A program made the translations under genes and the position numbers. A DNA stretch of 64,000 nt from Siphonodentalium dalli (taxonomy: Eukaryota; Mollusca; Scaphopoda; Gadilida; Siphonodentaliidae). This document shows positions 991 through 46,100 of this stretch, piece after piece (the stretch's first letter is position 1; the number at the start of each line of letters is the position of its first letter). Under the pieces are notes generated by a model that saw nothing but the letters and a program-made list of their open reading frames with translations, was not told the DNA's origin and searched no databases. Where the stretch lies: assembly GCA_032622095.1 (NCBI GenBank), contig CP136061.1, positions 252,289,582 to 252,353,581 of the forward strand. The letters run 5' to 3'.

Positions 991-1245
991 CCCTTTGATG
1001 ACTGGAGCTTCCTGAATTTTTGCGAAAACCCTGTGCCAATGCATTCTCTTACATATGCGAGTCGCCCATAGGGCGCCTCGCATATGTAAGAGAATGCAAT
1101 GGCCTAACAATATTTACCTTGATCCTGTAAGCCAGTGCATTCTCTTATATATGCGAGGCTCCCAATGGGAGACGGCCATATATAAGAGAATGCACTGGCA
1201 CAGGGTCTTTAATGCTGCACCAGCACAGCTCCCATCATGAAAGAG
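991..1245. mobile_element. TTAA-type MITE family B with two hairpins
   Basis: Bounded by TTAA (987-990 and 1246-1249). Ends CCCTTTGATGACTGGAGC and, reverse-complemented, CTCTTTCATGATGGGAGC. CCC...GGG ends with TTAA target duplications are the piggyBac pattern. Inside are two palindromes, 1029-1101 and 1130-1202, each able to form a ~30-bp stem. The first has C/G changes in both arms (TTACATATG and CATATGTAA) where other copies have TTATATATG; the second uses CCAGTGC/GCACTGG in both arms. Confidence 0.8.
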
Positions 1246-1366
1246 TTAAAATATGTTGAATCGTCAGTAATAAGAAATGGTAGTTCAGCAATCGATACAA
1301 TATTCGCCTAAAAACAATGTGCTGATGTTGCATTCTTTTTCTGTGGGCACATACATTATTTGTTAA

Positions 1367-1600
1367 CCCTTTGAGTGCCAGGGGCCGATCTCATCGGCCC
1401 TAAACCTACAAAATAAGTCTGTTAAAGAATATAAGAATAAATTATTAAAATTGTAAAAAAATAAAAAAAATAAAAAAATGTTAGGCCAATGCATTCTCTT
1501 ATATATGCGAGGCGACCTATGGTCGACTCGCATATATAAGAGAATGCATTGGCACAGGGTATATGGGTTGATACAAAAATCGGACCTGGCACTCAAAGGG
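1367..1600. mobile_element. TTAA-type MITE family C with one hairpin
   Basis: Flanked by TTAA (1363-1366, 1601-1604) with TIRs CCCTTTGAGTGCCAGG / CCTGGCACTCAAAGGG. An A-rich spacer precedes one ~74-bp palindrome at 1486-1558. The inner end motif (GGGTTGATACAAAAATCGGA) is shared with the 2.1-kb element at 22183-24308 and the truncated copy ending at 44166. Confidence 0.85.
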
Positions 1601-1604
1601 TTAA

Positions 1605-2113
1605 TTGTCTGGGTATTCAATAATCTCTACCAGGAAGTTTGAGAACAGTCTACTTTCGGTTTCCATGTATACCATATCAATTTGCGATATTTTGGCAATA
1701 AAATCTTACATGCCATTTCAATTATAACATTGTGTGATCAATCTAGCGATAAAATATCATCTGGCCTAAATCGACTGGGTGGAAGGTGGTCAATATCCAG
1801 AGAGTCAAGTTTGTTTGGCGACAAACTTGGGAAGCCCAAATTCGTTACACGGGTCCGAAATTGGGCTAGATCAGACCTGGAACTTAGCGATTATAAACAG
1901 GGTGCTGGACGGAAAATTGTTTTTGGCCTTTTTTCAGAAACATTGGCCAAATTGAAAACTAAATAAGGCTGCTAGACCACAGTGCTCCAGGCCACCCCAA
2001 AACGGTGGCTTCATTTGAAGAGGGGGCTTTGTATAAGTAAATTATATGGATAAAACACTAGTGCATTGTCTCATACCTGAGCTGCAAACAAAAAATCAAA
2101 TCTGAAAAAACTC
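1605..2113. other. Unannotated sequence
   Basis: No recognisable exon or repeat family. The 94-codon frame at 1682-1966 (plus) has no motif I recognise. Confidence 0.4.
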
Positions 2114-2117
2114 TTAA

Positions 2118-2509
2118 CCCTTTACCCAACAGAAGGGCCCTGTGCCAATGCATTCTCTTATATATGCGAGTCGACCATAGGTCGCCTCGCATATATAAGA
2201 GAATGCATTGGCTTAACACATTAAAAATTATAAAATTGTTAAAGAATGTAAGAAAAAATGGTAAAAAGTGTTAAAAAAAGTTTTTGTTTAGGCCAATGCA
2301 TTCTCTTATATATGCGAGGCGACCTATGGTCGACTCGCATATATAAGAGAATGCATTGGCACAGGGCATAACTGTAACTATCACAATGTGGTCAAGGAGC
2401 CGGTTCCAATGATATCCATATTTGTATGGTTCTATTGAGACAGACCGAAGATATTTTAGGCTGTTGAAGATTTATTTGGCCGGTTTTGGCCGGTTTGTTG
2501 GGTAAAGGG
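2118..2509 (+). mobile_element. TTAA-type MITE family A, copy 1 (two hairpins)
   Basis: 392 bp between TTAA sites (2114-2117, 2510-2513). TIRs CCCTTTACCCAACA / TGTTGGGTAAAGGG. Two ~74-bp palindromes (2140-2214 and 2290-2366) are separated by an A-rich spacer, then a ~140-bp tail with GGCCGGTTTTGGCCGG next to the right end. Nonautonomous, piggyBac-like by termini and target site. Confidence 0.88.
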
Positions 2510-2539
2510 TTAAGTCAAAATCTTTTTTTATATAACCTC

Positions 2540-3060
2540 AAATTGGCACAAAATCATCAAAATTCTAAGTTGAAAAATTGCAAGACGACAAGAACCATAA
2601 CCGCGGTGAAAATGGGCAGACCGAACCGAAATTCATACTTGATATGTATTTTCATATGACATAACACCGCTAAAAATAGGCGGACAAACCCAAATTCAAA
2701 CCTGACTTGTATTTTCATATCAGTAATCCATATACCAAACTTGAAAACAAACATAACCATAGCAAAAAGCTATCATACGGAAACCAAAATAATCGGCAAA
2801 TTTTAGTCAACAAACAAAGACTATAACTCCAGTAAAAATAAGCGGACAAAACCCAAATTCGAACTTGACCTGTATTTTCATATGAGTAATCCATATACCC
2901 AATATTAAAACAATCAGATAACTAGAACTATAGTTATCACCCGAAACTTCGGCAAATTCTAAGTCGAAAAGAACCATAACTCCACAAAAATGGGCAGACC
3001 AAATCCAAATTTGGACTTGACCTGTATTTGTGATAATAGAAAGTAGATAATTTGCCACAA
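2540..3060. repeat. Tandem diverged dispersed repeat
   Basis: Three to four diverged ~200-bp units share 'CCATAAC..C.G..AAAAT..GC.GAC', an 'AAATTCGAACTTGACCTGTA'-like segment and 'CATATGAGTAATCCATATACC'-like text. Related single units occur at 6130-6404, 7520-7640, 54895-55030 and 61660-61790. Probably a fragment of an ancient mobile element; class unknown. Confidence 0.6.
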
Positions 3061-4680: not shown

Positions 4681-4686
4681 GAAGTG

Positions 4687-5165: not shown

Positions 5166-5310
5166 GTAAAAATATCCTAGTTTCAATTCTCTACATTCGA
5201 AACTGTGGATGAGTTGATTACACATTGTAATTCAATTGAGTATTTGTCACTAAAAACAAGCATTCTGATTGGCCGAGAGCGGATAACTTTCGTTTTCGAT
5301 TCACCGACAT

Positions 5311-5687: not shown

Positions 5688-5833
5688 GGAGATAAACGTA
5701 CCCTGTTTCGTTGTACATTCTGGGATTCGAGCATGAAAACAGTTTGTGAACTCACCGGCAAGCCGGCTCGTTCACAAACTGTTTTCGTGCTCGAATCCCA
5801 GAATGTACAACTCAACAGGGTATGTTTATCTCC
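5688..5833. mobile_element. 146-bp near-perfect palindrome (fold-back element)
   Basis: The arms run from GGAGATAAACGTACCCTG to the centre near 5760 and back to CAGGGTATGTTTATCTCC. The centre reads ACTCACCGGCAAGCCGGCTCG. Arms differ at a handful of bases. Its symmetry makes matching open frames on both strands (TVCE.../SQTVF...), which are not evidence of coding. No clear target-site duplication is visible. Confidence 0.8.
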
Positions 5834-5839
5834 TAAATG

Positions 5840-6404: not shown

Positions 6405-7520
6405 ATGAAAGTGTCAATGACACTGTAGCTCAACTTAGGTAGGGGAATAATTTAATGGTTGACAGTAAATGGAGGAATAGGAAAGGTGCTAATTGAAATG
6501 TCTAACCTGCACCAAAGGATTCAGTGATGCAAAGAGTAAAATACAAGATGGCTGCTGGTGGCCATTTTTTAACATGGCTGGTGGCCATCAAATTTCATAA
6601 AGATCAGACCAAAGGTACGACCTGTAGCCCGCGCCAAAGGATTTAGTCATGCAAATAGTAAAATCCAAGATGGCTGCTGGCGGCCATGTTTTTCGGCCGA
6701 ACGACCCCAAAATCACTCGTTCCCATCTACATGTCATTGTTAACATCCATGACAAATTTCATGATGTTCCGATCAAAGCTACGACCTGTAGCCCGCACCA
6801 AAGGATTTAGTCATGCAAAGAGTAAAATCCAAGATGGCTGCTGGCGCCCATGTTTATTGGCCGAACGACCCCAAAATGACTCGTTCCCATCTACATGTCA
6901 ATATTAACATCCATGACAAATTTCATGATGATCAGATGAACAGTACAACCTGTAGCCCGCGCCAATGGATTGAATCTTGAAATCCAAGATGGCTGTCAGC
7001 GGCCATGTTTTTTGGCCGAATGACCCCACAATGATTCGTTCCCATCTACATGTCAATGTCAACATTCATGACAAATTTCATAAAGATTAGACCAAAGGTA
7101 CAACCTGTAGCCCGCGCCAAAGGATTTAGTCATGCAAAGAGTAAAATCCAAGATGGCTGCTGGCAGCCATGTTTTTTGGCCTAACGACCCCACAATCACT
7201 CGTTCCTATCTACATGTTATTAGTAACATCAATGACAAATTTCATGATGATCAGATGAACAGTACGATCTGTAGCCCGCGCCAATGGATTGAATCTTGAA
7301 ATCCAAGATGGCTGCCAGTGGCCATGTTTTTTTGGCCGAATGACCCCAAAATGACTTGTTCCCATCTACATGTCAATGTCAACATTCATGACAAATTTTA
7401 TGAAGATCAGACCAAAGGTACAACCTGTAACCCGCGCCAAAGGAAATTGTTGACGGACACACGGACGACGGACGCCAAACCATGGCAATAGCTCAAACTT
7501 ACAAAAGTAAGTTGAGCTAA
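6405..7520 (+). mobile_element. Pearl/Helentron-type element, 6 tandem units
   Basis: The left end ATGAAAGTGTCAATGACACT is followed by GTAGCTCAACTT; the right end is a hairpin finishing AAGTTGAGCTAA. The two ends share a subterminal inverted repeat (AGCTCAACTT / AAGTTGAGCT). Between them are about six ~155-165-bp units, each with AAGATGGCTG.TGGCGGCCATG and GACCCCAAAATGACTCGTTC, then a tail with ACACGGACGACGGACGCC. Subterminal inverted repeats, a 3' hairpin with CTAA end, internal ~160-bp repeats and a microsatellite-like tail are the published architecture of bivalve 'pearl' elements and Helentron-derived elements. No coding capacity. Confidence 0.8.
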
Positions 7521-7647
7521 CAAAAAGGACCACAACTCTGGTGAAAATTGGCAGGCGGAACCAGATTTCGAACTTGACTAGTATTTTTTGCTAGTGAACC
7601 CATATACCAAATTTCATTCCATTAAGTTCAGACAATGCATTCCAAAC

Positions 7648-8102
7648 GTACTCAATCTGATTAGACGCTCCAAAATTATTATTTCTTTGGCTTTGGGGGA
7701 AAATATTTGATTCGAGTCGAGGAACCCACCCATCAAAGCTCAGAGTGATTAGATATCGATTTTTGAAATCTATTAATTTTCGGAGATGTGGGCCACAAGT
7801 TGGCAGAACCACATGCTCAAAACGAACAAATTGCGGGTGTAAGACGAATCACTCTAAAATAAAGTGGTTATTATTGTTAACAGTAACTACTTGATTTTAG
7901 AGTTATCCATCTTACACCCGCAATTTGTCCGTTTTGAGTATGTGGTTCTGCCAACTTGTGGCCCACATCTCCAAAAATTAATAGATTTCAAAAATCTGTA
8001 TCTCTGAGCTTTGATGGGTGGGTTCCTCGACTCGAATCAAATATTTTCTACCACCAAAGCCAAAGAAATAGTGATTTAGGAGCGTCTAATCGGATTGAGT
8101 AC
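7648..8102. mobile_element. 455-bp fold-back element, ~210-bp arms
   Basis: GTACTCAATCTGATTAGACG at the left is mirrored by CGTCTAATCGGATTGAGTAC at the right. Similarity continues through the arms (ATGTGGGCCACAAGTTGGCA / its complement, CTTACACCCGCAATTTG) to a ~35-base loop near 7870. Arms are roughly 90% or more alike. No target-site duplication is evident. Confidence 0.82.
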
Positions 8103-8715
8103 CTTTAAAACGGGCTTATAAAAAAAACAATTGAATTTATTAAATTGCACCCATCTATTTGTCACTGAAAAGTAGTCATTTCTTGCACCTGAGATACTCT
8201 CAAAGCAATCCAAGCTACGTATATTATGCAAGTTGGTCATTTCCGTGGGTGCATTAATTTTGTTGATGGTACCCAGAGCACTGATCATGAAATTACGCAC
8301 GTGAGACCGCAATCTGATTGAAGACTAAATAAATGAACAAGCTACCGAGTTACATTGTTTAGAAATTTATAACATTCCGACAGTTATAATTATACAGGCT
8401 AAAAAGCCTCTATGCATTGACCAATAATACCTAGCAAGAAGAATTGAATTAAGCATTTCCAAAAATTTCAACAGGTAGCTTCCGTGAAAATGAAACCGAA
8501 AGGATAAATTCTGTAAATCATAAAACTATTTGTGCGCTGTGACGTCATACAACAGAAGATATTTATAACGGCGTAATGTGAATGATAGCGAAATCGTTCA
8601 AATCTGAATGTGTAGCTTGTTCAGTAGTCTGCATTAGTCCAACATCTATAGTTAGGACCACTACTATGAACAGTTTTAGATCCCAAACCCCCCTCGAGCC
8701 CCCCCGTTATGAAAT
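8103..8715. other. Unannotated sequence
   Basis: No gene or repeat recognised; a C-rich patch lies at 8690-8706. Confidence 0.4.
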
Positions 8716-9475: not shown

Positions 9476-9575
9476 TATGATAGATTGCTATTAAATTTAG
9501 GATAACACATGTATGTATCAAACAGATCATCAGCGAGGGGAATGAGGCCGTTCCACGGATGCCGAGCCATATTAA

Positions 9576-9920
9576 CCCTTTACCCAACAGAAGGGCCCTG
9601 TGCCAATGCATTCTCTTATATATGCGAGTCGACCATAGGTCGCCTCGCATATATAAGAGAATGCATTGGCTTAACACATTAATAATTATAAAATTGTTAA
9701 AGAATGTAATAAAAAATGGTAAAAAAAAAGATTTTTTTTTAGGCCAATGCATTCTCTTATATATGCGAGGCGACCTATGGTCGACTCGCATATATAAGAG
9801 AATGCATTGGCACAGGGCATAACTGTAACTATCACAATGTGGTCAAGGAGCCGGACCGAAGATATTTTAGGCTGTTGAAGCTTTATTTGGCCGGTTTTGG
9901 CCGGTTTGTTGGGTAAAGGG
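9576..9920 (+). mobile_element. TTAA-type MITE family A, copy 2
   Basis: TTAA at 9572-9575 and 9921-9924; same TIRs and two palindromes (9600-9672, 9743-9817). It lacks ~47 bp of the tail present in the other copies (the segment with GATATCCATATTTGTATGG), an internal deletion. Confidence 0.87.
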
Positions 9921-9924
9921 TTAA

Positions 9925-11284: not shown

Positions 11285-11288
11285 TTAA

Positions 11289-11681
11289 CCCTTTACCCAA
11301 CAGAAGGGCCCTGTGCCAATGCATTCTCTTATATATGCGAGTCGACCATAGGTCGCCTCGCATATATAAGAGAATGCATTGGCTTAACACATTAAAAATT
11401 ATAAAATTGTTAAAGAATGTAAGAAAAAATGGTAAAAAGTGTTAAAAAAAGATTTTGTTTTAGGCCAATGCATTCTCTTATATATGCGAGGCGACCTATG
11501 GTCGACTCGCATATATAAGAGAATGCATTGGCACAGGGCATAACTGTAACCATCACAATGTGTTCAATGAGCCGGTTCCAATGATATCCATATTTGTATG
11601 GTTCTATTGAGACAAACCGAAGATATTTTAGGCTGTTGAAGCTTTATTTGGCCGGTTTTGGCCGGTTTGTTGGGTAAAGGG
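11289..11681 (+). mobile_element. TTAA-type MITE family A, copy 3
   Basis: 393 bp, TTAA at 11285-11288 and 11682-11685, full A-family layout: palindrome (11311-11385), A-rich spacer, palindrome (11464-11538), tail with GGCCGGTTTTGGCCGG, TIR. Very close to copy 1, suggesting recent spread. Confidence 0.88.
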
Positions 11682-11734
11682 TTAAATAAAAGTTATCAAG
11701 TGGTGTAAGTTAAGACAAAGTGTGTCTGTCATTT

Positions 11735-12128
11735 GCAGAATGAGGTACCCAGAGGGTGAATTTAGTGACGCTATCCACATGGTGGGCTAGCATCACCAAA
11801 TTCACCTTCTGGGAATCTCATTCTGCTTAGTTCTCAACTTCTATGGGAGACCTAGGATCAGAGTGAAGTTCTCCAGTTGAAGTTAGTGCTGTCACTCATT
11901 AGTCACCTCAATGTATATGCAATTTATCTTCTGCAAATTAGGGGATAGAAAAACTGAACAGAAGGGAAAAAGTAACTAAAAACAATGTTAATTTGAGACC
12001 ATAGATACTTCCTAGAAGATGAAGTCTAAGCAGAATTAGGTCCCCAGATGGTGAATTTAGTGATGCTAGCCCACTGTGTTGGGTCGAGTCAATAAATTCA
12101 CCCTCAGGGGACCTCAGAAGACATTCTG
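11735..12128. mobile_element. Twin-palindrome element G, copy 1
   Basis: Two ~95-bp palindromes of the GCAGAATGAGGT...ACCTCATTCTGC type (11735-11826 and 12030-12128, both diverged) flank a shared spacer containing CTTCCTAGAAGATGAAG-type text. Similar pairs occur at 14028-15209 and 26010-26365. No TIR beyond the palindromes and no clear target-site duplication. Confidence 0.7.
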
Positions 12129-12221
12129 TAATTGACACACATTTCAAGGCTTGCATACAGACAAATGTGCTTATTTAATTTCTCCAGGAATAATGTTAAC
12201 GAAATAGACAGGGCTGAATAA

Positions 12222-14027: not shown

Positions 14028-15209
14028 GCAGAATGAGGTCTCCAGAGGGTGAATTTAGTGATCCTATCCCGCACAGTTGGGTAGCATCACCAAATTCACC
14101 CTCTGGCATGGTTCCTGCACCTATTTTGTAATCAAATTCAAGGTTATTCCAGGAGTTTCCAAGGCAGGATTCAAGGGTTTTTCATGGGTGCGCAAGCTAA
14201 AAATTCAAAGGTATCCAAAGAGAAGGCTGATAAATAAACTAATGAAATTAGAAAGTGCATACATGTTATGTACTAGTATTACATGAGACTGATGAGTATA
14301 AAGTACTTCACTCAGCTGGTGTAATATGGTATAAAGTATTTGGAAGATAAAATTGTTGTAACTAAATATATTGAGAAAACTATTTTTTAGAATGGGAAAC
14401 TAAGAAATATTATGCCATATTGGCACCATCTATTGGTTTTATGCCAAGTTGACCTTGGGGCTGGTTCACAGTTCCATGGACTCGGTCCACTGGAAATTCG
14501 ATCCCATGAATTTTGGAAACAAACATCATTTTCCACCCAGCACTTTCATTTTAATACCAGGCCAACTAAAACAATTCAATTTTCGTGTGTGTATGCAATT
14601 GTAACTAACTAAAATTAAATACATCGAAACAGATGTGTTTACCTAATGACAGAGCCGCAAACAAACAGTAATGAAATAAATTGAGGAAGACGGAAATAGC
14701 GTACCAGGTTTTTTCAGGAATCTAAAATTTTTACTGCACATAATTATTTTGCTGATCACTTTGTGCAATCATTCCAAATCCCGCTTTGTTATGGAATGCC
14801 AACTATTCAAGGGGGGGGGGGGGGGTCCAACATTTCAAGGATTCATACATGGATATTATTCAAGGGTTTTCAAGGAGTTTGGTGAAATTGAAGAGTATTC
14901 AAGGGCCTGGATAATGGATTTACATATTCAAGGGTGTTCAAGGAACCACGGGAACCATGCTCTAGGGACCTCATTCTGCTTAGTCCTCATCTTCTGGGGA
15001 GTATCTATTGTCTCAAATTAAAATTGTCTTAGTTACTTTTCCCCTTCTGTTCTGTTTCTATTTCCCCTAATTTGCGGATGATAGGATGCATAATCGAGGT
15101 GACTTCACCAACTTCAACTGGGGAACTCCACATCATAGGGTGAATGTGGTGATGCTAGCCCACCATGCGGGATAATCACTAAATTTACCCTCTGGGGACA
15201 TCATTCTGC
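14028..15209. mobile_element. Twin-palindrome element G, copy 2 (interrupted)
   Basis: The first palindrome starts GCAGAATGAGGTCTCCAGAG at 14028. Its right arm stops at CCCTCTGG (14106) and resumes after a nested insertion as GGACCTCATTCTGC (14966 on). The second palindrome is at about 15135-15209. Spacer text matches 26010-26365. Confidence 0.7.
14107..14959. mobile_element. Nested nonautonomous DNA element, CATGGTTCC ends
   Basis: It splits the palindrome arm of element G. Ends CATGGTTCCTG / GGGAACCATG, flanked by CTCTGG (14101-14106) and CTCTAG (14960-14965), a near-perfect 6-bp duplication. The interior has many 'ATTCAAGGG'/'TTTTCAAGG' repeats and a G15 run (14811-14825). No transposase frame; superfamily uncertain. 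Confidence 0.65.
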
Positions 15210-15295
15210 AAATGTCAGACACCATACTTCCAGGCTTGCCTGAGACTGGCATTCATGTTATGGAATCTCAGTAATAACACGTGACAGCAGATTAA

Positions 15296-15676
15296 CCCTT
15301 TACCCAACAAACCGGCCAAATAAAGCTTCAACAGCCTAAAATATCTTGGGTCTGTCTCAATAAAACCATACAAATATGGATATCATTGGAACCGGCTCAT
15401 TGACCACATTGTGATGGTTATAGTTATACCCTGTGCCAATGCATTCTCTTATATATGCGAGTCGACCATAGGTCGCCTCGCATATATAAGAGAATGCATT
15501 GGCCTAAAAAAAATCTTTTTTAACACTTTTTACCATTTTTTCTTACATTCTTTAACAATTTTATAATTTTTAATGTGTTAAGCCAATGCATTCTCTTATA
15601 TATGCGAGGCGACCTATGGTCGACTCGCATATATAAGAGAATGCATTGGCACAGGGCCATTCTGTTGGGTAAAGGG
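15296..15676 (-). mobile_element. TTAA-type MITE family A, copy 4 (inverted)
   Basis: TTAA at 15292-15295 and 15677-15680. Reverse orientation relative to copies 1-3: the GGCCGG tail is at the left, the palindromes at 15428-15504 and 15581-15656. Confidence 0.87.
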
Positions 15677-15680
15677 TTAA

Positions 15681-20410: not shown

Positions 20411-20416
20411 TATTAA

Positions 20417-20824
20417 CCCTTTCAATACTAAATACTAATTGACGAGTAGTTCCCTTATTAACCCCTTTCTATACTAAAGCATCATTGATGAGTAGTTCCC
20501 TTATTAACCCCTTTCTATACTAAAGCATCATCGACGAGTAGTTCCCTTATTAACCCCTTTCTATACTAAAGCATCATTGACGAGTAGTTCCCTTAGAAAA
20601 TGTTCAGATAATAAGTTCAACAAATGAAGGTGGTTTGTTGAACTATATATCTAAAATATCTAAATATTTCCCACCAATAAATAAGAATTCTTCTGCACTT
20701 GTTTTATCTTTCTGCCTGTCTGTCATCTGCTTATATTACCTGAACATCCCTCCAAATGAATAATAGACAATTCCAGTGTATACTTTTATAACTGAATGGG
20801 AGAATCCATTCAGAATAGAATAGG
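20417..20824 (+). mobile_element. TTAA-type MITE family D with amplified end
   Basis: TTAA at 20413-20416 and 20825-20828. The left terminus (TTAACCCCTTTCTATACTAA to GATGAGTAGTTCCCT) is repeated four times with a 46-bp period (20411-20594), each repeat carrying its own TTAA-CCC. The rest follows family D (AAATGTTCAGATAATAAGTT; GGGAGAATCCATTCAG). Confidence 0.75.
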
Positions 20825-25100: not shown

Positions 25101-28100
25101 TTTTATCATCTATAGTCACTGCATTTTATTAATATATAAGAATGATGGTGTGTGCAGTCCATTTGGATATAATATTTGTAAGAAATAACTACTTTGAGCA
25201 AGATTATTCTCCATTTCTATTTGATCAACCTACCAGAGTGTTTCACATCACATTAACATCCATTACTTAAATGAAATGATTAAATGAAAGGGTTAAATGT
25301 GAGATATTGATTGCAAACCTGATTGATTTCTCTATTGATTTCTCTATCAAACTCTTCCTGCTGTTGGAGTAGGTCTGTTCTCATCTGATCTTGGTTGTTC
25401 AATCCTCCTGCGGATTCCCGATTACTTATACTCTGTGAAACCTGCTGGATTCTTTGCATGAGTGTTGAGTCGGCCAGTATATTCTGCACTTGTCTAAAAT
25501 TTATCAATTTGTAAAGTGATTTAACCCTTTCTTTAACCCTTTGCCCAACAGAACGGCCCTGTGCCAATGCATTCTCTTATATATGCGAGTCGACCATAGG
25601 TCGCCTCGCATATGTAAGAGAATGCATTGGCTTAACACATTACAAATTATAAAATTGTTAAAGAATGTAAGAAAAAATGGTAAAAAAAGATTTTTTTTAG
25701 GCCAATGCATTCTCTTATATATGCGAGGCAACCTATGGTCGACTCGCATATATAAGAGAATGCATTGGCACAGGGCATAACTGTAACTATCACAATGTGG
25801 TCAAGGAGCCGGTTCCAATGATATCCATATTTGTATGGTTCTATTGAGACAGACCGAAGATATTTTAGGCTGTTGAAGCTTTATTTGGCCGGTTTTGGCC
25901 GGTTTGTTGGGTAAAGGGTTAACCCTTTCTTTAATAAATACTCTTTCAAGCGTTGTTCATTCAGGAAATGTTCTGATAATCAAGTCTGCAAATAGCATGT
26001 CTGTCATTTGCAGAATGAGGTCTCCAGCAGGCTAGCATCACCAAATTCACCTTCTGGAGACCTCATTCTGCTTAGGCTTCATCTTCTGGGAAGTATCTAT
26101 AGCAACAAATTAAGATTGTTTTTAGTTACATTTCCCTTCTAGGAAGTTTCTATATCCCCCAATTTGCAGAATATAAAATTCATAATTGAGGTGCCCAATG
26201 GGTGAACATCACTAACTTCAACTGGGGAACTTCAATCTAATCCTAGGTCTGCCATATCAGTTGAAGGCCTAAGCAGAATGAGGTCCCCAGAGGGTGAATT
26301 TAGTGATGCTAGCCCGCTATGCGGGTTAGCGTCACTAAATTCACCCTCTGGGGACCTCATTCTGCATATGAGCTCAACAAACAGCAGGTCGTTGAACTTA
26401 TTATCTGAATATTTCCTACAAAAGAATATGAACCAGTCTGCTCATCTGTGTCATAAGCTAATATTTTCCTAAGCACCTGTTCAGATGAATAATAGAGCAT
26501 TCCAATATACAGTTTTATAAATGATGGCTGAATCCATTTAGTGTAAAGAATGGATTAACAGCCATATAAATAAGAGAAAAAATATCACAATTTTCTCAAA
26601 TCTTTCACAATTAAACACTGTAGTTCCAAACTAATACATAATCGCTAACGGTAGGACCAAATTAAATGAATATTCCTAGATCTGGAATTCAATCATTATT
26701 TTCATCTGCCAAATAATCATGAATAATTAACATCAAGACAATAGCCATAAACCAGGAACAGTAGATGGTAAGCACTAAGCAGCAATTTAAATTGCAAGTG
26801 CAAATTAAGTAAGAAAATATATCTATTATATATAAATATGATCCCATGAAATGAATGCTAAGAATGATGAAATATAGAATACACCCATAGTAGCCGAGAA
26901 TACCACGAGTGGTGAAAATTTTATACTCTCGGCTACTATGCATGTATTTTATTCATGCCATAATTATTATTTTTGATTTGTTCATCCAATTCAACACACC
27001 GAGAGACACAAACACAACGCTAAAAGGAATGTACGTCACGCGTAGTGATGCATACATTTACGTCACATGTGACGTCAGCCTGTTTCTGAGCAATCAGTCA
27101 CTTGGAATTACCATTCATATGTTTCCTAGTTCATATAACACTAGCAATTAGCTACAATGCTACATTTAATTGAAATGCAGGTAATTATTCTCATATTTTC
27201 CTAGTTTATATCATGACAACTTCCAATTTTAAATGAATAGGAACTATTTTGCTAACTACGATATAGTTCTATTATGGGTATAAAGTTTAACACATGAAAT
27301 TACCTTTGAACATTTACACCCACAGTAGAAATTTTATACCCACAGTAGGGTGTAAAGATGAAGTTTACAAAATAGGTGTTATACACACAATATAATAGGC
27401 AATTATGGTATAAAAACATATCCCTTAAGTTGAATGCTCCTAAACCAAAAACTTCAATAAATAATTATGGGAAGTATTAGGCCCAGAGGAACAATATAAT
27501 AGTTTTGAGAACAATTTGATGCACCATTAACATTAACTAGAGAACATACAGATTGGTCCAAGGCTCAAAATCATTTTTTTTCTACTGACTGTCAAAATGA
27601 CAGGCACCAAATGGATGGTGTTGGTCATTTCAAAATTGTGCCTGTCAAATTTTGAGATGTACTGAATGAGACCGTATTTAAATTTCCAATCAACTTATTT
27701 TTCGTCAATGAGTGAGCATCCAATCGCCACCCAGGAAAAACCCAAGTTATTTTTGTTTTCAAAAGTTCAAAAACGTTCCCGTCAATTATTACATACAAAT
27801 GCACTTCACAAACAAGATAATTGCATTAACTCGGAATTAATCTGAAATTAAAAAAGAACTATTTTTTACTTTCAATGTCTGATTTGGCCAGTAATGGCTA
27901 CTTGGATCTACCCGAACAGATTTGCATTGGGCAAAATGTCCGACAGATACAGAAGTGCATTGGACATAAGCTATTTTTCTTCGGACAATGACCATGACCG
28001 GCCACTTATTTTGAGCCTTGGATTGGTCACTTACATCTATTGGAATACTAACCCTTGGAAATTACCATTATCTGCACGTGCCATTTTTTGCATCTGTGAA

Positions 28101-31100
28101 GAAGCATTCCCATCTTCATCATCACTTTCACCATAATCAAAAGCCAGGAGATCCTAAAGCAAAAATAGACTTACTTGCAGACGGACGGACAAACTTACTG
28201 TAATAGTCTTACTTATGGCATATCTCTTCACTAAACTTACTATAATATAGATTCAGGAGTTTATAGCAATTTATCATGTTTTCATAAACTTTTTACGATA
28301 GTCAAAATATAAATCATATTCCCACTCCCAATTTATAATTATTGGATAGCATTTTCCAATATCGACGCTTTATCATACACAACATAACAAATATTCCCTG
28401 CGAACCACCAACCTCATCAAAAGTTATTGTGCTATCGCGATCAAAATTCACAAAAAGAACTGATAAAGGTAGACGACCGCCTACATGTGAACTGACCTTT
28501 TTAAAAATGAAAGTGTCAATGACACTGTAGCTCAACTTGGAAAGGGAATAATTTAATGTATTCCAGTCAATGGAGCGATTAGGAATGTGGTAAGTTGAAT
28601 CTCTAATACTAGTTTATAGACATTGAAGAGAAAAGTAAAATCCAAGATGGCTGCTGGCGGCCATGTCTTCGGCCGAATGACCCCAAAATGATTATATCCC
28701 ATCCACATGTCATCGTTAACATCCATGACAAATTTTATGACGATCAGACTAAAGGTACGACCTGTAGCCCATGCTAATGGATTGAATTTAGTCATACAAA
28801 GAGTAAAATCCAAGATGGCTGCTGGCGGCCATGTTTTTTGGACAAATGACCCCAAAATGACTCGTTCCCATCTACATGTCATTGTTAACATCCAGGACAA
28901 ATTTTATGATGATCAGACTAAAAGTACGACCTGTAGCCCGTGCTAAATGATTTAGTCATACAAAGAGTAAAATCCAAGATGGCTGCTGGCGGCCATGTTT
29001 TTTGGCCGAATGACCTCAAAATGACTCGTTCCAATCTACATGTCATTGCTAACATCCATGACAAATTTTATGATGATCAGACTAAAGGTACAACCTGTAG
29101 CCTGTGCTAATGGATTGAATTTTGAAATCAAAGATGGCCACTGGCGGCCATGTTTTTTGGACGAATGACCCCAAAATGACTCGTTCCCATCTACATGTCA
29201 TTGTTAACATCCAGGACAAATTTTATGATGATCAGACTAAAGGTACGACCTGTAGCCCGTGCTAAAGGATTTAGTCATACAAAGAGTAAAATCCAAGATG
29301 GCTGCTGGTGGCCATGTTTTTTGTCCGAATGACCCCAAAATTAATCGTTCCCATCTACATGTCAATATTAACATCCATGATAAATTTTATGATGATCAGA
29401 CGAACAGTACGACCTGTAGCCTGTGCTAATGAATTGAATTTTGAAATCAAAGATGGCCGCTGGTGGCCATGTTTTTCATCCAAATGACCCCAAAATGACT
29501 CGTTCCCATCTACATTCCAATTTCAACAGCCACGAAAAATTTCATGACGATCAGACTCAAGGTACAACCTGTAGTCCGTGCTAAAGGATTTAGTCATACA
29601 AAGAGTAAAATCCAAGATGGCTGCTGGCGGCCATGTTTTTTGGCCGAATGACCTCAAAATGACTTGTTCCCATCTACATGTCATTGTTAACATCCATGAC
29701 AAATTTTATGATGATCAGACCAAAGGTACGACCTGTAGCCTGTGCTAAAGGATCTAGTCATACAAAGAGTAAAATCCAAGATGGCTGCTGGCGGCCATGT
29801 TTTTTGGCCGAATGACCTCAAAATGACTCGTTCCCATCTACATGTCATTGTTAACATCCATGACAAATTTCATGATGATCAGACTGAAGGTACGACCTGT
29901 AGCCTGTGCTAATGGATTGAATTTTGAAATCAAAGATGGCCACTGGCGGCCATGTTTTTCATCCGAATGACCCCAAAATGACTCGTTCCCATCTACATTA
30001 TAATTTCAACAGCCATAAAAAATTTCATGATGATCAGACTCAAGGTACGACCTGTAATCCGTGCTAAAGGATTTAGTCATACAAAGAGTAAAATCCAAGA
30101 TGGCTGCTGGCGGCCATGTTTTTTGGCCGAATGACCCCAAAATTACTCGTTCCCATCAACATGTCAATATTAACATCCATGACAAATTTCATGATGATCA
30201 GACGAACAGTACGACCTGTGGCCTGTGCTAATGGATTAAATTTTGAAATCAGAGATGGATGCTGGCGGCCATGTTTTTTGTCCGAATGACCCCAAAACGA
30301 CTCGTTCCCATCTACATTCTAATTTCAACAGCCATCAAAAAATTTATGATGATCAGACTAAAAGTACGACCTGTAGCCCGTGCTAAATGATTTAGTCATA
30401 CAAAGAGTAAAATCCAAGATGGCTTCTGGTGGCCATGTTTTTTGGCCGAATGACCCCAAAATGACTCGTTCCCATCCACATGTCATTTATATTAACATTC
30501 ATGACAAATTTTATGATGATCAGACTAAAAGTAGGACCTGTAACCCGTGCTAAATGATTTAGTCATACAAAGAGTAAAATCCAAGATGGCTGCTGGCGGC
30601 CATGTTTTTTGGCCGAATGACCTCAAAATGACTTGTTCCCATCTACATGTCATTGTTAACATCCATGACAAATTTTATGATGATCAGACCAAAGGTACGA
30701 CCTGTAGCCTGTGCTAAAGGATCTAGTCATACAAAGAGTAAAATCCAAGATGGCTGCTGGCGGCCATGTTTTTTGGCCGAATGACCTCAAAATGACTCGT
30801 TCCCATCTACATGTCATTGTTAACATCCATGACAAATTTCATGATGATCAGACGAACAGTACGACCTTTAACCCGTGCTAATGGATTGAATTTTGAAATC
30901 AAAGATGGCCACTAGTGGCCATGTTTTTTATCCGAATGACCCCAAAATGACTCGTTCCCATCTACATTACAATTTCAACAGCCATAAAAAAAATTATGAT
31001 GATCAGACTAAAGGTACGACATGTAGCCTGTGCTAAAGAATTTAGTCATACAAAGAGTAAAATCCAAGATGGCTGCTGGCGGCCATGTTTTTTGGCCGAA

Positions 31101-34100
31101 TGACCCCAAAATTACTCGTTCCCATCTACATGTCAATATTAACATCCATGACAAATTTCATGATGATCAGACGAACAGTACGACCTGTGGCCTGTGCTAA
31201 TGGATTAAATTTTGAAATCAGAGATGGATGCTGGTGGCCATGTTTTTTGTCCGAATGACCCCAAAACGACTCGTTCCCATCTACATTCTAATTTCAACAG
31301 CCATTACAAATTTAATGATGATCAGACTAAAGGTACGACCTGTAGCCCGTGCTAAAGGATTTAGTCATACAAAGAGTAAAATCCAAGATGGCTGCTGGCG
31401 GCCATGTTTTTTGCCCGAATGACCCAAAAAAGACTCGTTCCCATCTACATGTCATTGTTAACATCCATGACAAATTTTATGATGATCTGACCAAAGGTAC
31501 GACCTGTAGCCCGTGTCAAAGGATTTAGTCATGCAAAGAGTAAAATCTAAGATGGCTGCCGGCGGCCATGTTTTTTGGCCAAATGACCCAAAAATTACTC
31601 GTTCCCATCTACATGTCAATATTAACATCCATGACAAATTTCATGACAATAAGACAAACGGTACGGCCTGTAGCCCGTGCTAATGGATTGAATTTTGAAA
31701 TCCAAGATGGCCACTGGCGGCCATGTTTTTTTTCCGAATGACCCCAAAATGACTCGTTCCCATCTACATGTCAATGTCAATATCCATGACAAATTTCATA
31801 ATAATCGGACCAAAGGTACGAACTGTAGCCCGTGCTAAAGGAAATTGTTGACGCATCACGCACACACACACTCACACACGCACACACGGACGACGGATAC
31901 CAAGCCATGGCAATAGCTCAAACTTTACAAAGTAAAGTTGAGCTAATAACTCAACCAATAAAACTGCCAATGATTGAGTTGCTCTTCAATTATCCAATTT
32001 GAATAGCATTTTGCTGTGCGAAACAAAAGTTATTCCAAAAGGACAAAATTTTAATTTGGTTTCTTTGCCCTGAACTTACCAACATTAAAAACACTCTCCC
32101 TACTCAAAAAATTGTATTGGCTTCTCGGAGAATTTTTTTTAATTCCAATGTGGATGATAAACACATGAATAGAATAATTGAAATGTATCAAATATTTTTT
32201 ATTTAAAGATGGATTATCTCTTCGTATAACAATTTTGAAATAGTTTTGTGGGTATAAAATAATAAATATGAATTGAAGATCCCTGTCCGGAAACACTTCC
32301 ATCAATTAATATTGATTTAAAAATATTTTATTATACAGACCCTCTCAAAATAAGTGTCCCTTTTAACGTGGTCCTCAACGTGGTCGTAACGTCAACGCAA
32401 TGCGGTCGTTGCGTTGATAACGCGTTGGTGATACGTTACGACCGCGTTGAAAATCAATGGACAGCGTTGAAGTTTAACGCAGACCGCGTTTACGTTAAAC
32501 ACGTTGCGTTAAGGATCAACGCACACACGTTGAAGATTACAATCACCGCGCCGAAAACTAAACAGACGATGAGTCGCGTTATTTGGCTTTACACCATTCA
32601 ATTTTTGTTTTATTTACGATCACCTATGACTAATTTAGTGTCATTTCCCCACTATCCGAAAATCACATATCTACGCATTCGTTCCAAAAAGGCAATTTAT
32701 TTGCAGTTTTTGACTCATGTTAGACTTTTTTGTGATATATACAGGTACAATGTGCATGTATCAGTGTATCGCACGGAGTGGTCGTGTGGTTGTGTTTCCC
32801 AATGTATGGAGTAAAACACTACGCACAAATATATTGCCATATTAAATGTCCGCTACAGAACTGCTGGAGAGTGAATATATGTACATGTCATTGCAACGAA
32901 GAATACATCTAATAGGCTTAGTAGCAGTAAATAAACCACAATTAACTAACATTCTGGTTTCGTAGTTGACGAAACCAGAATAACTTCGTCAACTATATTA
33001 GATTTAAAATGCGCAGTATAAACATGATGCCTGTCGTTTTTCTGCAGCAGTATGTCAGTCTCCGTTCAGGATGTGAATCTGACCAATTAGAAGATCAATT
33101 TTCAAATATGGGTGGAGTTATCTGGTGGTGGTGTGTGTTTTTTTAGCGGGACATTGAATTACCGTACATATTTTGTCCGGCATCGGCGTTTGAAATCAAA
33201 TGGGTACGCCATTATGTGTAGACTTGTTTGATTTGAATTGTTGCTATTTTACGATGTACTTGTCAGCAGAAATGATAACGAATTTCTGAGAATACTGTAA
33301 ATAAATGTGCTAAAGGTAAAATGCACAGGGCTCTGGGAACTTTTTATTTTATTATATTATTTTTTAAATTAATATCATAAAATGATAAAAAAAAATGTTC
33401 CCAGACACCTGTGTGTAAAATATATCATTGCACGTTTAACTTGATGTGGTTATTATGCACAACGTGTGCCGTTTAATTCCTACTATCATACCATGAACTA
33501 AAGGTTTCTATAATTGACATATATGAGGTTTTGATGGGCAGATATCGGCTTGAAAGAGAATAAATTTAACTCATTTGTTGTCAGTTTTGCAAAAATTCCA
33601 ATTATCGCCTCTAATAAAGAGCGTCCATACTTCCATCGAAACGTAGTAGGTAATAAAGAGAATTTAAATTATGATAGTTTGTACTCGTTTTCAATGTAAA
33701 ACCATCAACGTATGTAAATATAGATCGATGGTAAAATGGGTGGACACTTTTGTGTGTTTTCGCAATGTCTGACATAATAATTGATGGTGACTATTTTAAA
33801 GTTTTCTTTTAACCCGGAATGTTAGAAAATTACAGTTTTGTCTATTTCGTATCAACTGCGTGGAACCGCGCTTGGATCTTCAAATTTATATTTTGTTTTT
33901 AAATATTTGAGGAGGACAAATAAATAATTGAATTGCAGTGATTTAATTCTGGTAAGAAAAACAGAATTTAACTGAATTATTAAACTTATATATACTACGG
34001 TAAAAAGTAAGTTAATATTTATCATAGGCTTGTCTATACAATAGCGGACAATTACTGAAACTTATCTCTTCTAAGCCAAGTTGAGTAAGATTATTTCATC

Positions 34101-40100: not shown

Positions 40101-43100
40101 GAGGTAAAGACTGGTACGGTTGCTCAAAGTAGGTAATCATTGACTAATATGCCCTTACCCAACGATAACAAGTAATACACCCGTGAATGAGCAACCTGCA
40201 CGGTGTGTGGCCATCAAATTCGAATCATGTTCGACTGCAAGACATGCTGTTAGTTATAACAAAGCAAGGTTAATATACATAACACAATACAACCTAGGTT
40301 ATTGAATATAAAGTAAGGTTAATATAAAATCACGTTATACCCCTGGCCACGTGATCTTACCTGCTATGACAGGTAAGATACTGTCTTTTCTCGTATATGA
40401 GGACGATGAGTTCCGAATGCACATAGGCAAGAACTAGGCGGTTTCCGTTAGGAAAGTGCGCTTACAGCGGACGTGAAGATACGAATGCCTGTATTTTCGT
40501 CATGATTGTATCGAATCGTTTTGTCACATAATCAGTGGATATGTCGATGATATACCACTATGATCACATGACTGCGGAGGAGCAGGCCCGGATGTATCCC
40601 GAAGGTATTACTATTCCAGGGGATCGACTGGACCCCATCTTGTAATGATGTGGGCCACTGCACCATGGGGAAGAGTCAGAAGGCCATTTGGCTGGTGCGC
40701 TATGTCTATGAGAGCAAGAGCGTCACGTGACAACGAGTCTTCCCCACCCAGAACAGCCGCCATAGACGAAGAGCCATGTCATGGCCGGTTTCGGAAATAT
40801 ATTGGCAGTAGATGTGCGCAATATAAACGCTGCGCATGTAAGCTCGCATTAGACATGTAACAATACAAATGCAGTCCTTTCTGCGCAATATAAATGTGTT
40901 GCATGTAACTGCGCATCATACACGAGTGAAAGCTATGTGGCAGAATATCGTTTTGATATATGTGGAAATAGAAGTTAGTGAGCCAAGTGATGGTCTCTAC
41001 TGGAAAGACTATTGGCAGTGAATCTGGAGCACGTGACAATATGTATTCTTTCTATTTCGCTGTTTGCCGTTATCATTCACTGATGAAACTGCAAAGTATG
41101 TCAGTATTGGGATGAAAACTGTTCACCATATGTAAGCATACTAGTAGTCAGTTCTGACAGCATACATGAGGCCCTGATACGATATGATTGTCATGTACAA
41201 TGTATGGAACTATTACGGCGTGCAATACATCATTGCAAGCTCGGCCACGCCGAGGCATATTAGAGCCTACGGTAAGATGGCTTAGTGTCAGGCCACAAAG
41301 TTTTCACTTCATTGCAGTTGGTGAACAATAGTTCGTAGGAACCCAAACTGTACATACATGGATGTAAAGAATGCAACACAATATTTAGAACGTCAGACAA
41401 CACATCAATTCGAAGTGTGGTTATATATGTGATAACGAATACCATCCCCCTGTTACGGAGTGTTAGTAACTATTGTACTGATGATACAATGAGTTATATG
41501 ATATTTAATCGTGATAGACAAGGTAGAATTTTCGAAATACCTTGAAGTCGATGTAATGTGTTATTACATTTGTCATGTGTCTAACAAGACCACGCGCTCA
41601 TACATACTGGCGGGCGTAGATTCGCAGGTATTGATCGTTAAAACAATATTACAGATCGCTCAGTCGAAAGAAATGTGAATTGTCATCTGATAGTGATAAC
41701 AAGTACTATCTTTCGTATTTATTCATGTAAATTATTACAAAGGAGGATATGGCTGTCCTGTGCAACTTTCTGCGAATTAACAGAGCAGTGCCATGTATGA
41801 TTTGGCAGTATACATTAGGATACAAAGCAACGGAACTTACGAAATAACCGAAGCGAGTCGACGGAAACTTATGTAAAGTGAAACACGTGTAGCACGAAAT
41901 TAGGAGACATCGCATACCGTACTACATTGCGTCCTCAATTGTAAGTCATGATAGTCATCACGCCGTATGTGTGGCACAATATGCACTATGTGGTTTTGCC
42001 ACAAGTAAGCTATGTGCTTCTTTAGTCATTGTCAAGATGGCCATCTTAATTCCAATTGTTGGAAGATAAAGCCGTCTTGAGGAAAACACGGAAACAAATT
42101 ACGGATACAGTGAAACGAAAAAGGTTCCCGTTTCGGATGTGAGAAATATTAATTAACTATCGGGTACAATAAATTGCAAGTTTGTAATATCAACAATAAA
42201 TATTGAGTCGATAAACTCGCAACACAGAAAGATACAACCTTGAGAAAATAGAAACGATCCTGTCCTGGCGAGGAGGAATAAAAACTGACTAGACAATAGA
42301 TAGAATGCGGGTGTATTCATGCGAGACTAATCTGGACACGGATGTGAGTGGGGTCGGCACAGCAATAAAATTTTAACCCTCCTGATTGACACAAGGCCGG
42401 AGACGTAATCCATATAGTTCAGTTGAGGGCTTCTCCTTGGCGGAAAAACAAAATTGAAATAAAACCTGTGCGCCCGCATTGATTTAAAAAAAAAACGTCT
42501 GAGAATCAAATATTCCTTTTTTGTTTGGCCCAACCTACCTACTGATTCTTGAAACTTTTATAGGGTCAGGGGGGAAACAATAATAGTTTTAAATGTGGTC
42601 CTACTTAGGGCTGGACGATATTAACGAAAATAAAAACCGCGATTTTTGGAAATTAAAACCGTGGTTAACAATATAATCGCGTTTTTTTTTAAACAGATAC
42701 AAGAAACTGAAAACAACTTCTCACTGTTCGCTAGAATCACATCATTGTCATTAGTTTTGACAAGTTGGCATCGGGAATAACATACCCGGTATAATTATGC
42801 AACCACTCAACCAGTGACAACCTCATGCTCGATCGATATTGGCGGAATGAAAAGTAAATTCACTGGTTAAATTCCGCTATTCGGACAATTTCGTTCCGGT
42901 GACTTGACAAATTCTGGTATATACCGGTAATTAATAAAACCATTATCTCGTATATGCCAAAACTAAAAGTGTTCTATACTATAGTATCCTTTTCTAACTC
43001 GATATGTTCAACTATGTTGAGTAAATATATATGCTATTCCCGATGACACTTGCGTCGCTTGACAACTGGAAATGTGGTTTACCGTCAAGACAAATTTGAC

Positions 43101-46100
43101 AATGATGTTCAGTCTTTTCGCGAAGTCCAAATACACGTAGTACATAACTTTTGGAATTCAGCCAAGCAAGGACATCATGTATTGTTGGGCGGGTTTGAAG
43201 CTCTAATTCTATACAATTGGTTTTAACCAATCGCAGTGAGTGGTTTCTTCTAGACGAGAAGAGGGCGGTATCTTCGCCCATTTATTATTTTGATTGACGG
43301 TGCATGTGCATCGTTGTACTGAAGGAAGAGGCGTGGCACGACTGACATTCATATCGATCTATCACCTGATCAGTCGTCGATTCATTTGGTGAATTCTCTT
43401 GTAATAAATATTTCGCAGGAAAGACGGAGAGCGAAAGAGGGACGTATTCTGGGTTTTCATATTCCCCCAATTTCGTTAGTCGTTCTAAACGTTGTTTACT
43501 ATGATGATTGAATATTGAAAAAATAGGACACGGGATTTAGTTGGAATTTAAAACTTAAATAACTCGATTTAGGCTTGAGTTAAACTATTTATTTGTATAT
43601 ATGCTTATGATTGGATGGCACCCACTGATTGCCGACGATATTACGATTATTTTAGATTAGACGATATTACTGACGATATTGAAATTTTAACCGGGTATTG
43701 TCGATTAATCGGGAAACCGCCCAGCACTAGTCCTACTCCGTGTCATACCTTGTTGAATCCCGGTTCTGGTGGTTTCCCTCCGCCCTCCGTGGGAACAGTC
43801 TTACTAAGCAGCTGATTGGTGAGTGTTTGTATCTGGGATAGTAGATTGTTGTCAAACAGTGGCGTCTGCTGCTGTTGAGGCATTTGCATTAGTTCCGTCT
43901 GCAGCTTGAGTTGTTGCTGAAGCAGCTGTAGCTGTTCTAAATGAGCCTGCTGTTCTGTAAGACTGATAGCGCCTCCCTGTAAATATATTAAAAATTATTA
44001 AAATTGTAAAAAATTGTAAAAAATAATAACAAATGATGAAAAATTGTTAGGCCAATGCATTCTCTTATATATGCGAGGCGACCTATGGTCGACTCGCATA
44101 TATAAGAGAATGCATTGGCACAGGGTATATGGGTTGATACAAAAATCGGACCGGGCAATGAAAGGGTTAAGTAATTGACCCAGTAACTGGGGTTATTATG
44201 TATTTATAACCGCAGTAAAACCATAACTGCATCAATGTTAACGGTTTTGTGATGGCTATGGCACACTGATTAAATACGGAAAGAAACCCTGATAATATTC
44301 CTTGACTGCCTGTACACTGTACAAAGCTAATGAACTGCTGACTGTGACATATAAATTTGTTGGAGCCGCAATTGTACTGGAAGTTACCATTTCATACCAG
44401 CTGATGATTTCATGGGTTCTAACCACACAATCCTGATTGTCTTGTGGTTTGTAACCACGTTTAAGTCTAACTGGAGTAGCCCCTAAACCCGGCCTCATAT
44501 TTTTAGTCAAGACACACATGTTATGTAAGAGCTTAGCACAATGATATCAATGTCAATGGTGGAGTTAACTTTAGTTAATTAGAATATAACTAGCTGATGT
44601 GCCCAACTTCGTCTGGGCTATTTAGGGATTTCTTTGTGATCGCCTCCGTCTGTGCAGAATAGACACGTTGAAAAGTATTAGGAGAAAGAAAAACTATTGT
44701 TCGATCAGTCCAGAAACATGCCTACAGACCTTCTCAAAAGTAATGGCCCTCCCGACCGCGTTACGACCGCGTTGGAGTAACGTTACGACCGCGTTGGTCC
44801 AACGCGGTCGTAACGTTACTCCAACGCGGTCGGGGAAACCGCCAACGCAACATAACGCGGTCGGCACGAGCACCAACGCAACAAACGCGGTCGAGATAAC
44901 CGTCAACGCAACAAACGAGATCGGGAGAATAGCTTATCAACTGTAATAATAATTATTGAATAACATTGTAAACATGAACTTTGAGACATGAACTCATTTT
45001 ATTAAAAAAACATTAAATTGAAAAGAGAAAATTCTGGAAAAAAATAATAAATAAATGCAGATCACATCGATCGCGCTGCACGAATTAATAGAGATGCAAT
45101 TGAGATTTCTAACAAACAAAAAACTTTGAGTTCACGTCGCAATGTACATGTACGTGTATTCTTTGAATATTTAATATTCAGCGTCACCTCCTAATAAAGG
45201 TCAATAACCTGTACGCCAAGGGTCCGATGTCATTTGAAATCTTCGTGAGGGTACGATAAAACACACATCTACATTTACACGCACGTTGGTAATTGACACA
45301 TGGATATACATGTACAGTGATGCAAATAATTTAGAATATTAATTATCCATGTGTTGTGAAATACATGTAAAACAAACAGCGCTCAGATTTGGTTACCAGT
45401 GATTTGTCACTTTAACCAACAGACCCCGGATCAAAAGCATGACACGAATGATTGACAGCGGTGTCAATAGACGCAAATACAATACGGGGCGTGTCTTCGG
45501 TAAAGTGGAGAGTGATACCATGCGACTCAAACGGAATTCTCGATTGAAAACGTGCTGTCATAACTTCGTCGGTTTTGATTGGCTAGTGACCACTCGATGA
45601 AGTCTTGTTCAGGTGTTACTTTATTCATTGATGATGAAATAACGAAATCAGTCGTATTCAATGGTGCTTCGAAGAGACCAACAATGTTTAATCCGCTATT
45701 GTGGAGGCAAGCATATGTCTTATGATAAATATTAACTTTCTTTTTACCGTAGGATATATAAGTTGAATAATATTGTTAACTTCAGTTTTTTTTTCACCGG
45801 AATTAAATCACTGCAATTCAATTATTTATTTGTCTTCATCAAATATTTGAAAACAATGTACATTTGAAGATCCAAGCGCCGTCCGACGCAGTAGATACCA
45901 AATTAGACAAAATTGTTTGTTTTTTTCTAGATTTCCGGGTTATAAAAGAAAACTTTAATATAGTCACCATCAATTATTATGTCACAGAAATCGCAAAAAA
46001 AACACACAAATGTCCACCGTTTTATTATCGATCTATATCTACATACGTTTGTGGTTTTACATTGAAAACGAGTACAAACTATCATAATTTAAACGCTCTT

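Follow-up and report, generated by a model that had tools for sequence, protein, structure and literature searches.

A hairpin cassette common to three families of TTAA elements in a scaphopod genome

Nearly identical long hairpins recur in one 64-kb stretch of contig CP136061.1 of the scaphopod Siphonodentalium dalli (hereafter the window, to which all counts, statistics and positions refer), where they lie within short transposable elements whose ends differ. The locus raises two questions: how one hairpin came to lie behind different ends, and why both arms of the hairpin have changed in matching ways in some copies. The elements have TTAA flanks and CCCTTT-type tips and form three families (A, B and C) with a common inner cassette and unrelated outer parts; B-type ends also occur without the cassette. 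Our best explanation is that these are three families of TTAA miniature inverted-repeat transposable elements (MITEs), that a single inner two-hairpin cassette was exchanged between their ends, and that its dyad was maintained in mobile source copies. Taken as a whole, this explanation is one that we hold with moderate confidence.

TTAA element families and the cassette they share

The hairpin-bearing loci of the window (ten in number) and one related stretch, B', are as follows, with terminal inverted repeats (TIRs) given where they characterize a family.

987-1249, plus strand: element A1, family A; TTAA at both ends; hairpins at 1035-1103 and 1131-1199
1363-1604, plus strand: element B1, family B; TTAA at both ends; TIR CCCTTTGAGTGCCA; a single hairpin at 1485-1553
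2114-2513, plus strand: element C1, family C; TTAA at both ends; TIR CCCTTTACCCAACA; hairpins at 2144-2212 and 2292-2360
9572-9924, plus strand: element C2, family C; hairpins at 9602-9670 and 9743-9811
11285-11685, plus strand: element C3, family C; hairpins at 11315-11383 and 11464-11532
15292-15680, minus strand: element C4, family C, reversed; hairpins at 15435-15503 and 15582-15650
22179-24312, plus strand: stretch B', TTAA-flanked, with B-type ends and no hairpin match within
24568-24809, plus strand: element A2, family A, degraded; TTAA at the right end only; hairpins at 24615-24675 and 24703-24759
25533-25922, plus strand: element C5, family C; hairpins at 25563-25631 and 25701-25769, each with one single-arm change
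43977-44170, plus strand: element B2, family B, left part missing; TTAA at the right end; hairpin at 44051-44119
51826-51893, minus strand: half copy with a family A left end and one hairpin arm; end TTGACCCTTCC (TTGA) instead of TTAA

The eight elements with two ends are 242-401 nt long, and seven of them are flanked by TTAA left and right. Nine of the ten loci retain a TTAA end tipped with CCCTTT or CTCTTT on one side or both. The TIRs of B1 and of C1 to C4 match at 14 of 14 positions and those of C5 at 13 of 14, all with CCCTTT tips; the tips of A1 are CCCTTTGATGACTG and CTCTTTCATGATGG, one of them of the CTCTTT form, and the left tip of A2 has decayed. Twelve TTAA-flanked TIR pairs were found in the window, seven of them tipped with CCCTTT or CTCTTT, compared with none or one in each of 10 Markov shuffles. 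With TTAA ends, CC[C/T]T tips, small size and ten loci in 64 kb, these are non-autonomous piggyBac-type (TTAA) MITEs.

An earlier note on this DNA had described a hairpin of about 74 bp at 14 or more places within MITEs, and this description held. We identified 14 full-length hairpins of 69 nt (about 75 if the outer CCCTGT is counted), each composed of two 33-nt arms and a 3-nt loop with 29-32 of 33 positions paired, as well as two degraded hairpins (24615-24675, from which the central 8 nt have been lost on one side, and 24703-24759) and the half copy at 51826. The arm pattern GCCAATGCATTCTCTTATAT, with up to three mismatches allowed, matches 32 times (0.01 expected by chance) and the centre pattern GCGAGGCGACCTATGGTCGACTCGC 13 times (0.00 expected). 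A scan for near-perfect hairpins returned 23 in the window and none in three Markov shuffles. Fourteen of the 23 are the shared hairpin (13 with 31-32 of 33 pairs, and the degraded 24615-24675); 1131-1199 and 24703-24759 were not returned by the scan. Folded as RNA, the consensus and the left hairpin of A1 (A1L) reach -54 kcal/mol (z about -14), the right hairpin of A1 (A1R) -46 kcal/mol, and the two A2 hairpins -28 and -23 kcal/mol. Each strand of the hairpin has CCAAT at position 2 and TATATAAG at position 49, a layout that looks promoter-like, with CCAAT 47 nt upstream; 28 of the 35 TATATAAG words on both strands of the window are within hairpin arms.

Read inward from the outside, the hairpin is CCCTGTGCC-arm-ATA-arm-GGCYTAA, with slight deviations in family A, and in two-hairpin elements the second hairpin is the mirror image of the first. 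The loop is ATA in 13 full-length copies and ATT in one, and is inverted in none. All 14 are mismatched at pair 28, five pairs short of the loop, where a T in the outer arm faces a C in the inner arm. Because this mismatch and its orientation are kept throughout, the full-length hairpins all appear to descend from one ancestral hairpin that was duplicated in mirror image, with the mismatch already present.

The note had further proposed that the hairpin is a module captured by several element families. A module is indeed common to A, B and C, but it is a cassette of two mirror-oriented hairpins around a spacer rather than a lone hairpin; family B keeps one hairpin. The cassette edges, CCCTGTGCC and GGCACAGGG, are identical across the three families, and the two hairpins are separated by a spacer of 69-80 nt in family C and of 27 nt in family A. 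Ten of the 12 hairpins of B and C are letter-identical (B1R, B2R and eight of family C). When B1 and C1 are aligned locally, the alignment covers the AT-rich spacer and reaches its right limit a few bases past the cassette; it also takes in a left stretch of B1 (near 1392-1405) that may be a relic of a lost first hairpin.

Outside the cassette the families part. As the note had stated, the TIRs of A, B and C differ (past TTAACCCTTT), and their outer parts give no between-family match (BLAST, E 0.01). By comparison, B' matches the outer end of B1 at 91-93% identity over 44 nt, and the match stops within a few bases of the cassette boundary. No hairpin match was found in B', just one 9-letter arm word at 22397, and five reading frames inside or overlapping B' have no Pfam domain. 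B' is probably a single element, judging from its matching ends of about 60 nt. This 2.1-kb stretch consists partly of 148- and 175-nt tandem repeats. The cassette is thus present or absent behind like ends, and the same cassette is found behind unlike ends.

Could A, B and C be a single element whose TIRs merely drifted? Most tips do start with TTAACCCTTT or nearly so. However, hairpins are identical between B and C where outer parts are unmatched, and B-type ends occur without the cassette. Drift of one element's ends is disfavoured by these comparisons and seems very improbable, and the note's separation of the families stands. Alternatively, the two-hairpin cassette may be mobile in its own right and have inserted into three TTAA elements, which would fit its constant CCCTGTGCC/GGCACAGGG boundaries and the existence of B-type ends that lack it. 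Yet each of the ten loci has an outer flank of family type on one side or both, and by eye we saw no target duplication at CCCTGTGCC/GGCACAGGG in A or C. We consider this alternative improbable, and the note's suggestion that the hairpin is itself mobile is not borne out. For the same two reasons, we favour recombination or conversion over transposition of its own as the route by which the cassette reached different ends. Nested insertion of the cassette as a TTAA element was also considered and rejected: there is no TTAA at the cassette edges, and no TTAACCCTG in the window.

The note had judged the hairpins to be better conserved than the spacers. Young copies agree with this, modestly (P 0.008-0.08 by test; these values are nominal, uncorrected for multiple testing), and family A does not. 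Singleton changes in the five C elements number 2/690 in hairpins compared with 10/865 in flanks including tips (P=0.077) or 15/1243 in flanks plus spacer (P=0.042); with the B pair added, the counts are 2/759 and 13/910 for hairpins and flanks (P=0.016). Variable columns amount to 2/138 in the hairpin and 18/227 in the rest when the tips (1/36) are left out (P=0.008), or 10/147 in the non-spacer flank (P=0.036). Pairwise substitutions among C elements total 38 over the 80 columns of the spacer and 8 over the 138 of the hairpins. Between A1 and A2, the hairpins diverge like the remainder (15/117 versus 20/124, P=0.58), and 21 nt have been lost in the hairpins and 1 elsewhere.

Ectopic gene conversion among hairpins, perhaps triggered by breaks at extruded palindromes, might both keep the hairpins identical and move them between families. 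The identity of B and C hairpins and the shortage of hairpin singletons (2/759) are in line with this. There is also a precedent in Galileo elements, in which chimeras have exchanged TIRs or inner parts, and TIRs and inner region from different subfamilies are ascribed to ectopic recombination or conversion (PMC3573991); Galileo belongs to the P-element class, has long TIRs and occurs in Drosophila, unlike the elements described here. Conversion by itself, however, makes no symmetric changes, and the sharing between B and C spans the spacer and is also compatible with one exchange. No conversion tract ending within a hairpin was noticed, although no program search was made for such tracts. As the cause of hairpin identity and spread, conversion among hairpins is possible but doubtful.

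Changes in the two arms

We scored arm changes against the B/C consensus hairpin. Three paired changes pointed out in the note were confirmed: TTACAT/ATGTAA at pair 18 (in 1035-1103), GCCC/GGGC at pair 31, and CCAGTGC/GCACTGG at pair 5 (in 1131-1199 and 24703-24759). The two hairpins of A1 differ from the consensus as follows.

1035-1103, plus strand: hairpin A1L; symmetric changes at pairs 18 and 31, one-sided change at pair 5
1131-1199, minus strand: hairpin A1R; symmetric changes at pairs 5, 30 and 31, left-only changes at pairs 24-26

With two left and three right changes in A1L, two are symmetric (0.07 expected; raw Monte Carlo P=7.5e-4); with six left and three right changes in A1R, three are symmetric (0.20 expected; raw Monte Carlo P=2.3e-4). 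The two hairpins of C5 (C5L and C5R) have one one-sided change apiece. That in C5L (25563-25631) is an A-to-G change at pair 18 on one arm only, giving a T-G wobble; A1L has the change on both arms, and C5L thus resembles a half-way state. Among seven distinct rows, both sides are changed at six pairs (eight cells), and covariation is 0.117, compared with 0.058 in shuffles, none of 500 of which reach the observed value.

Such shuffles ignore kinship among copies, and we therefore divided arm changes into shared and private ones and ran CpG-weighted nulls (weights 1, 4 and 8). Both changes shared within family A are symmetric (pairs 5 and 31; P from 3.5e-4 to 0.0072 by CpG weight); that at pair 5 is shared by A1R and the right hairpin of A2 (A2R). 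Four private changes are symmetric, at pair 18 (A1L), pair 30 (A1R) and pairs 2 and 24 (the left hairpin of A2, A2L), although CpG decay suffices to explain pair 24. The private-change test was run with A2R kept in (see below) and left out, because its centre does not align; when it is left out, P=0.00095 at CpG weight 8 and is lower at weights 4 and 1. Symmetric arm change in family A is likely to be real, and it comes from few hairpins of that family alone, mainly three.

An unrelated hairpin family of the window (family P) provides a control.

11735-11826, 12029-12131, 14028-14106, 15128-15214, 26010-26071 and 26273-26365: family P hairpins, in mirror-image pairs

Family P is MITE-like (GCAGAATGAGGT...), with arms of about 45 nt, and occupies the stretches 11735-12131, 14028-15214 and 26010-26365. 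Its best copy (26273-26365) likewise has a 3-nt loop, ATA/TAT. Covariation in family P is 0.039 compared with 0.032 in shuffles, 115 of 500 of which reach it (six copies, two of them truncated or interrupted). Only two pairs are altered on both sides, and the arms drift apart. Since family P lacks an excess, symmetric change is not automatic for hairpins of the window, although the control is suggestive only, as these copies are seemingly older and fewer.

Old hairpins of both families have central deletions (24615-24675, 24703-24759 and 26010-26071), which points to a similar mode of decay; the loss is one-sided in the first and last of these. By eye, an insertion of about 840 nt (14107-14949, with CATGGTTCC/GGAACCATG ends) appears to split one hairpin of the family P element at 14028-15214.

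Arm-to-arm template switching during replication (quasipalindrome correction) would copy changes from one arm to the other in a hairpin under no selection. It is a known mechanism that homogenizes the arms of inverted repeats and yields compensatory changes (PMC8794818, PMC8604942). Three of the six symmetric changes (pairs 2, 30 and 31) are transversion pairs, which have no wobble intermediate, A1R is changed at both of the adjacent pairs 30 and 31, and hairpin changes are few in young copies, all of which template switching could explain. It is harder to reconcile with the survival of the pair-28 mismatch in 14 of 14 copies, and with a loop that is never inverted, spacer inversion being among the known outcomes. 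The older and fewer copies of family P show no excess, and none of the 11 private arm changes of A2R (at 10 pairs) is symmetric, though its centre is poorly aligned. We regard template switching as a close rival of maintenance of the dyad, tentative though it is as the sole cause.

The note had suggested that arm-to-arm repair or selection keeps the arms symmetric. Symmetry above chance was found in family A; efficient repair fits poorly. It is unlikely because the mismatch at pair 28 persists in every full-length copy, young copies have one-sided changes, A2R has no symmetric private change and family P has no excess.

Maintenance of the dyad and its precedents

Maintenance of the dyad during mobility, followed by decay, fits best because it accommodates the symmetric changes, the kept mismatch, the one-sided decay of an old copy that has landed and the lack of an excess in family P. 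A piggyBac-type transposase would move the elements by acting on their tips, and recombination or conversion among elements would have put the cassette between different ends. Symmetric arm changes would have arisen mainly in mobile source copies that maintained the dyad, most likely as subterminal sites in transposition, as in known piggyBac ends. After landing, copies would decay by changes in single arms, and the paired changes themselves may come from template switching between arms. PiggyBac ends have 19-bp palindromes that are bound by two cysteine-rich domains (PMC11707139), and, by analogy, binding by such domains could be the reason for the dyad here.

Several observations weigh against dyad maintenance in mobile sources. 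Tip and hairpin are 26-149 nt apart, depending on the element, and there is a single hairpin in B and none in B'; not every TTAA element here, then, needs the hairpin. The palindrome is also far longer than that of piggyBac, the TIRs of A1 agree at only 10 of 14 positions, and there is no transposase domain among the 19 of 88 listed reading frames that were scanned. Private symmetric changes in A1L, A1R and A2L may mean that symmetry also arose after landing. When A2R is kept in, the four private symmetric changes compare with 1.9 expected (P=0.08, CpG weight 8), and the outer 20 pairs of A2R have three one-sided changes and no symmetric one. The pair-31 change is shared by A1L and A1R and, in A2L, by the one arm that is left there, and it could have run in either direction. 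Only two family A elements have both hairpins, and shared and private changes are not cleanly separable. Finally, the mild deficit of hairpin changes in young C elements (P=0.042) is not required by selection at the source level.

The closest precedents are the CMITEs of corals (Acropora), with REPINs comparable by analogy. Like the elements here, CMITEs have a TTAA duplication, CCCTTT-type tips and a copy in a presumed intron, and include families with different TIRs and a common inner region better conserved than the TIRs (PMC2872659), a pattern also found here. The CMITE inner region is one 75-nt block, whereas the elements here have two near-perfect 69-nt hairpins with a spacer. The published 60-nt CMITE consensus folds no better than shuffles (z -0.65), and so the hairpin doublet sets the elements of the window apart. 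The ends of piggyBac and piggyBat share the TTAA target and subterminal palindromes near the tips (PMC11707139), but those palindromes are about 14-19 bp rather than 69 nt, and here the position of the hairpin varies.

REPINs have two REP units inverted around a less conserved spacer, and compensatory changes have been reported in them (PMC3116915). An inverted doublet with a less conserved spacer was also found here, its orientation marked by the T-C mismatch. REPINs are bacterial, are thought to be mobilized by the RAYT tyrosine transposase, and have units that pair mutually; here, the setting is eukaryotic, in TTAA elements, and the two hairpins are each self-complementary. The resemblance is one of plan only. 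The hairpin doublet might nonetheless be a eukaryotic REPIN-like selfish cassette that converts or recombines into resident TTAA elements of different families and so gains new ends and transposases, with arms kept symmetric since the folded hairpin is recognized. We think this unlikely.

No published account of the hairpin sequence was found in literature that covers few subscription journals. Hairpin strings had no match in literature text; one TIR string matched two papers, which we judged to be chance. In IMG/VR, an exact 21-mer and a 23-letter pattern had no hits, and C1 had no match among phage records. A 19-mer had two hits in GTDB genomes, but the flanks do not continue the hairpin, and these were taken as chance.

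Gene context and significance

The minus strand encodes a CID domain at 55130-55477; a second piece at 51879-52202 is below the Pfam cut-off. This gives the window a eukaryotic look, and SCAF-type genes have such a domain. The note had placed several copies in SCAF introns. The CID domain was confirmed, and the elements at 24568-24809, 25533-25922, 43977-44170 and 51826 lie between frames that, by eye, may be SCAF exons. The AT-rich spacer of B2 (43977-44051) adjoins a putative SCAF exon and appears to give its splice acceptor (TTTACAG, minus strand).

Hairpins in introns could be kept as a source of small RNAs, cut from the double-stranded RNA into which intronic transcripts would fold; human mir-548, from Made1 MITEs, is a precedent (PMC1784062). 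The strong predicted fold of the consensus and the four loci between putative SCAF exons are consistent with this. Weighing on the other side, a search of the whole window against Rfam gave no RNA family at its gathering score. The microRNA hits below threshold, on both strands within 900-2600, resemble generic long stems, and resident copies such as A2 are decaying. Maintenance for small RNAs appears improbable to us.

Also present in the window are other repeats. A further TTAA element (212-854) has tips CTCTTTCGCTGTCA and CTCTTTTGCTGCCA and a short palindrome, CTCGCATAAATGCGAG, near its left tip. A tandem array at 20411-20595 with the 46-nt unit TATTAACCCCTTTCTATACTAAAGCATCATTGACGAGTAGTTCCCT recalls tandem CMITE arrays and, by eye, shares CATTGACGAGTA with the CMITE consensus. 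A 164-nt tandem repeat of similar sequence (...AAATCCAAGATGGCTGC...) forms three arrays (6589-7444, 28634-31842 and 62768-63955). Other, unrelated near-perfect palindromes with short loops are at 5688-5833, 7644-8106 and 44764-44832.

If the cassette was exchanged between families, this would give non-autonomous elements a way to swap their ends and so stay within reach of new transposases. It would also bear on the origin of the shared inner region of CMITEs, which is left open for corals (PMC2872659). If the cassette is REPIN-like, the doublet of family P would be a second instance of the same design. Many dated hairpin copies would let template-switch mutation be told from selection on pairing in compensatory change, whose cause in evolving RNA stems is not yet settled.

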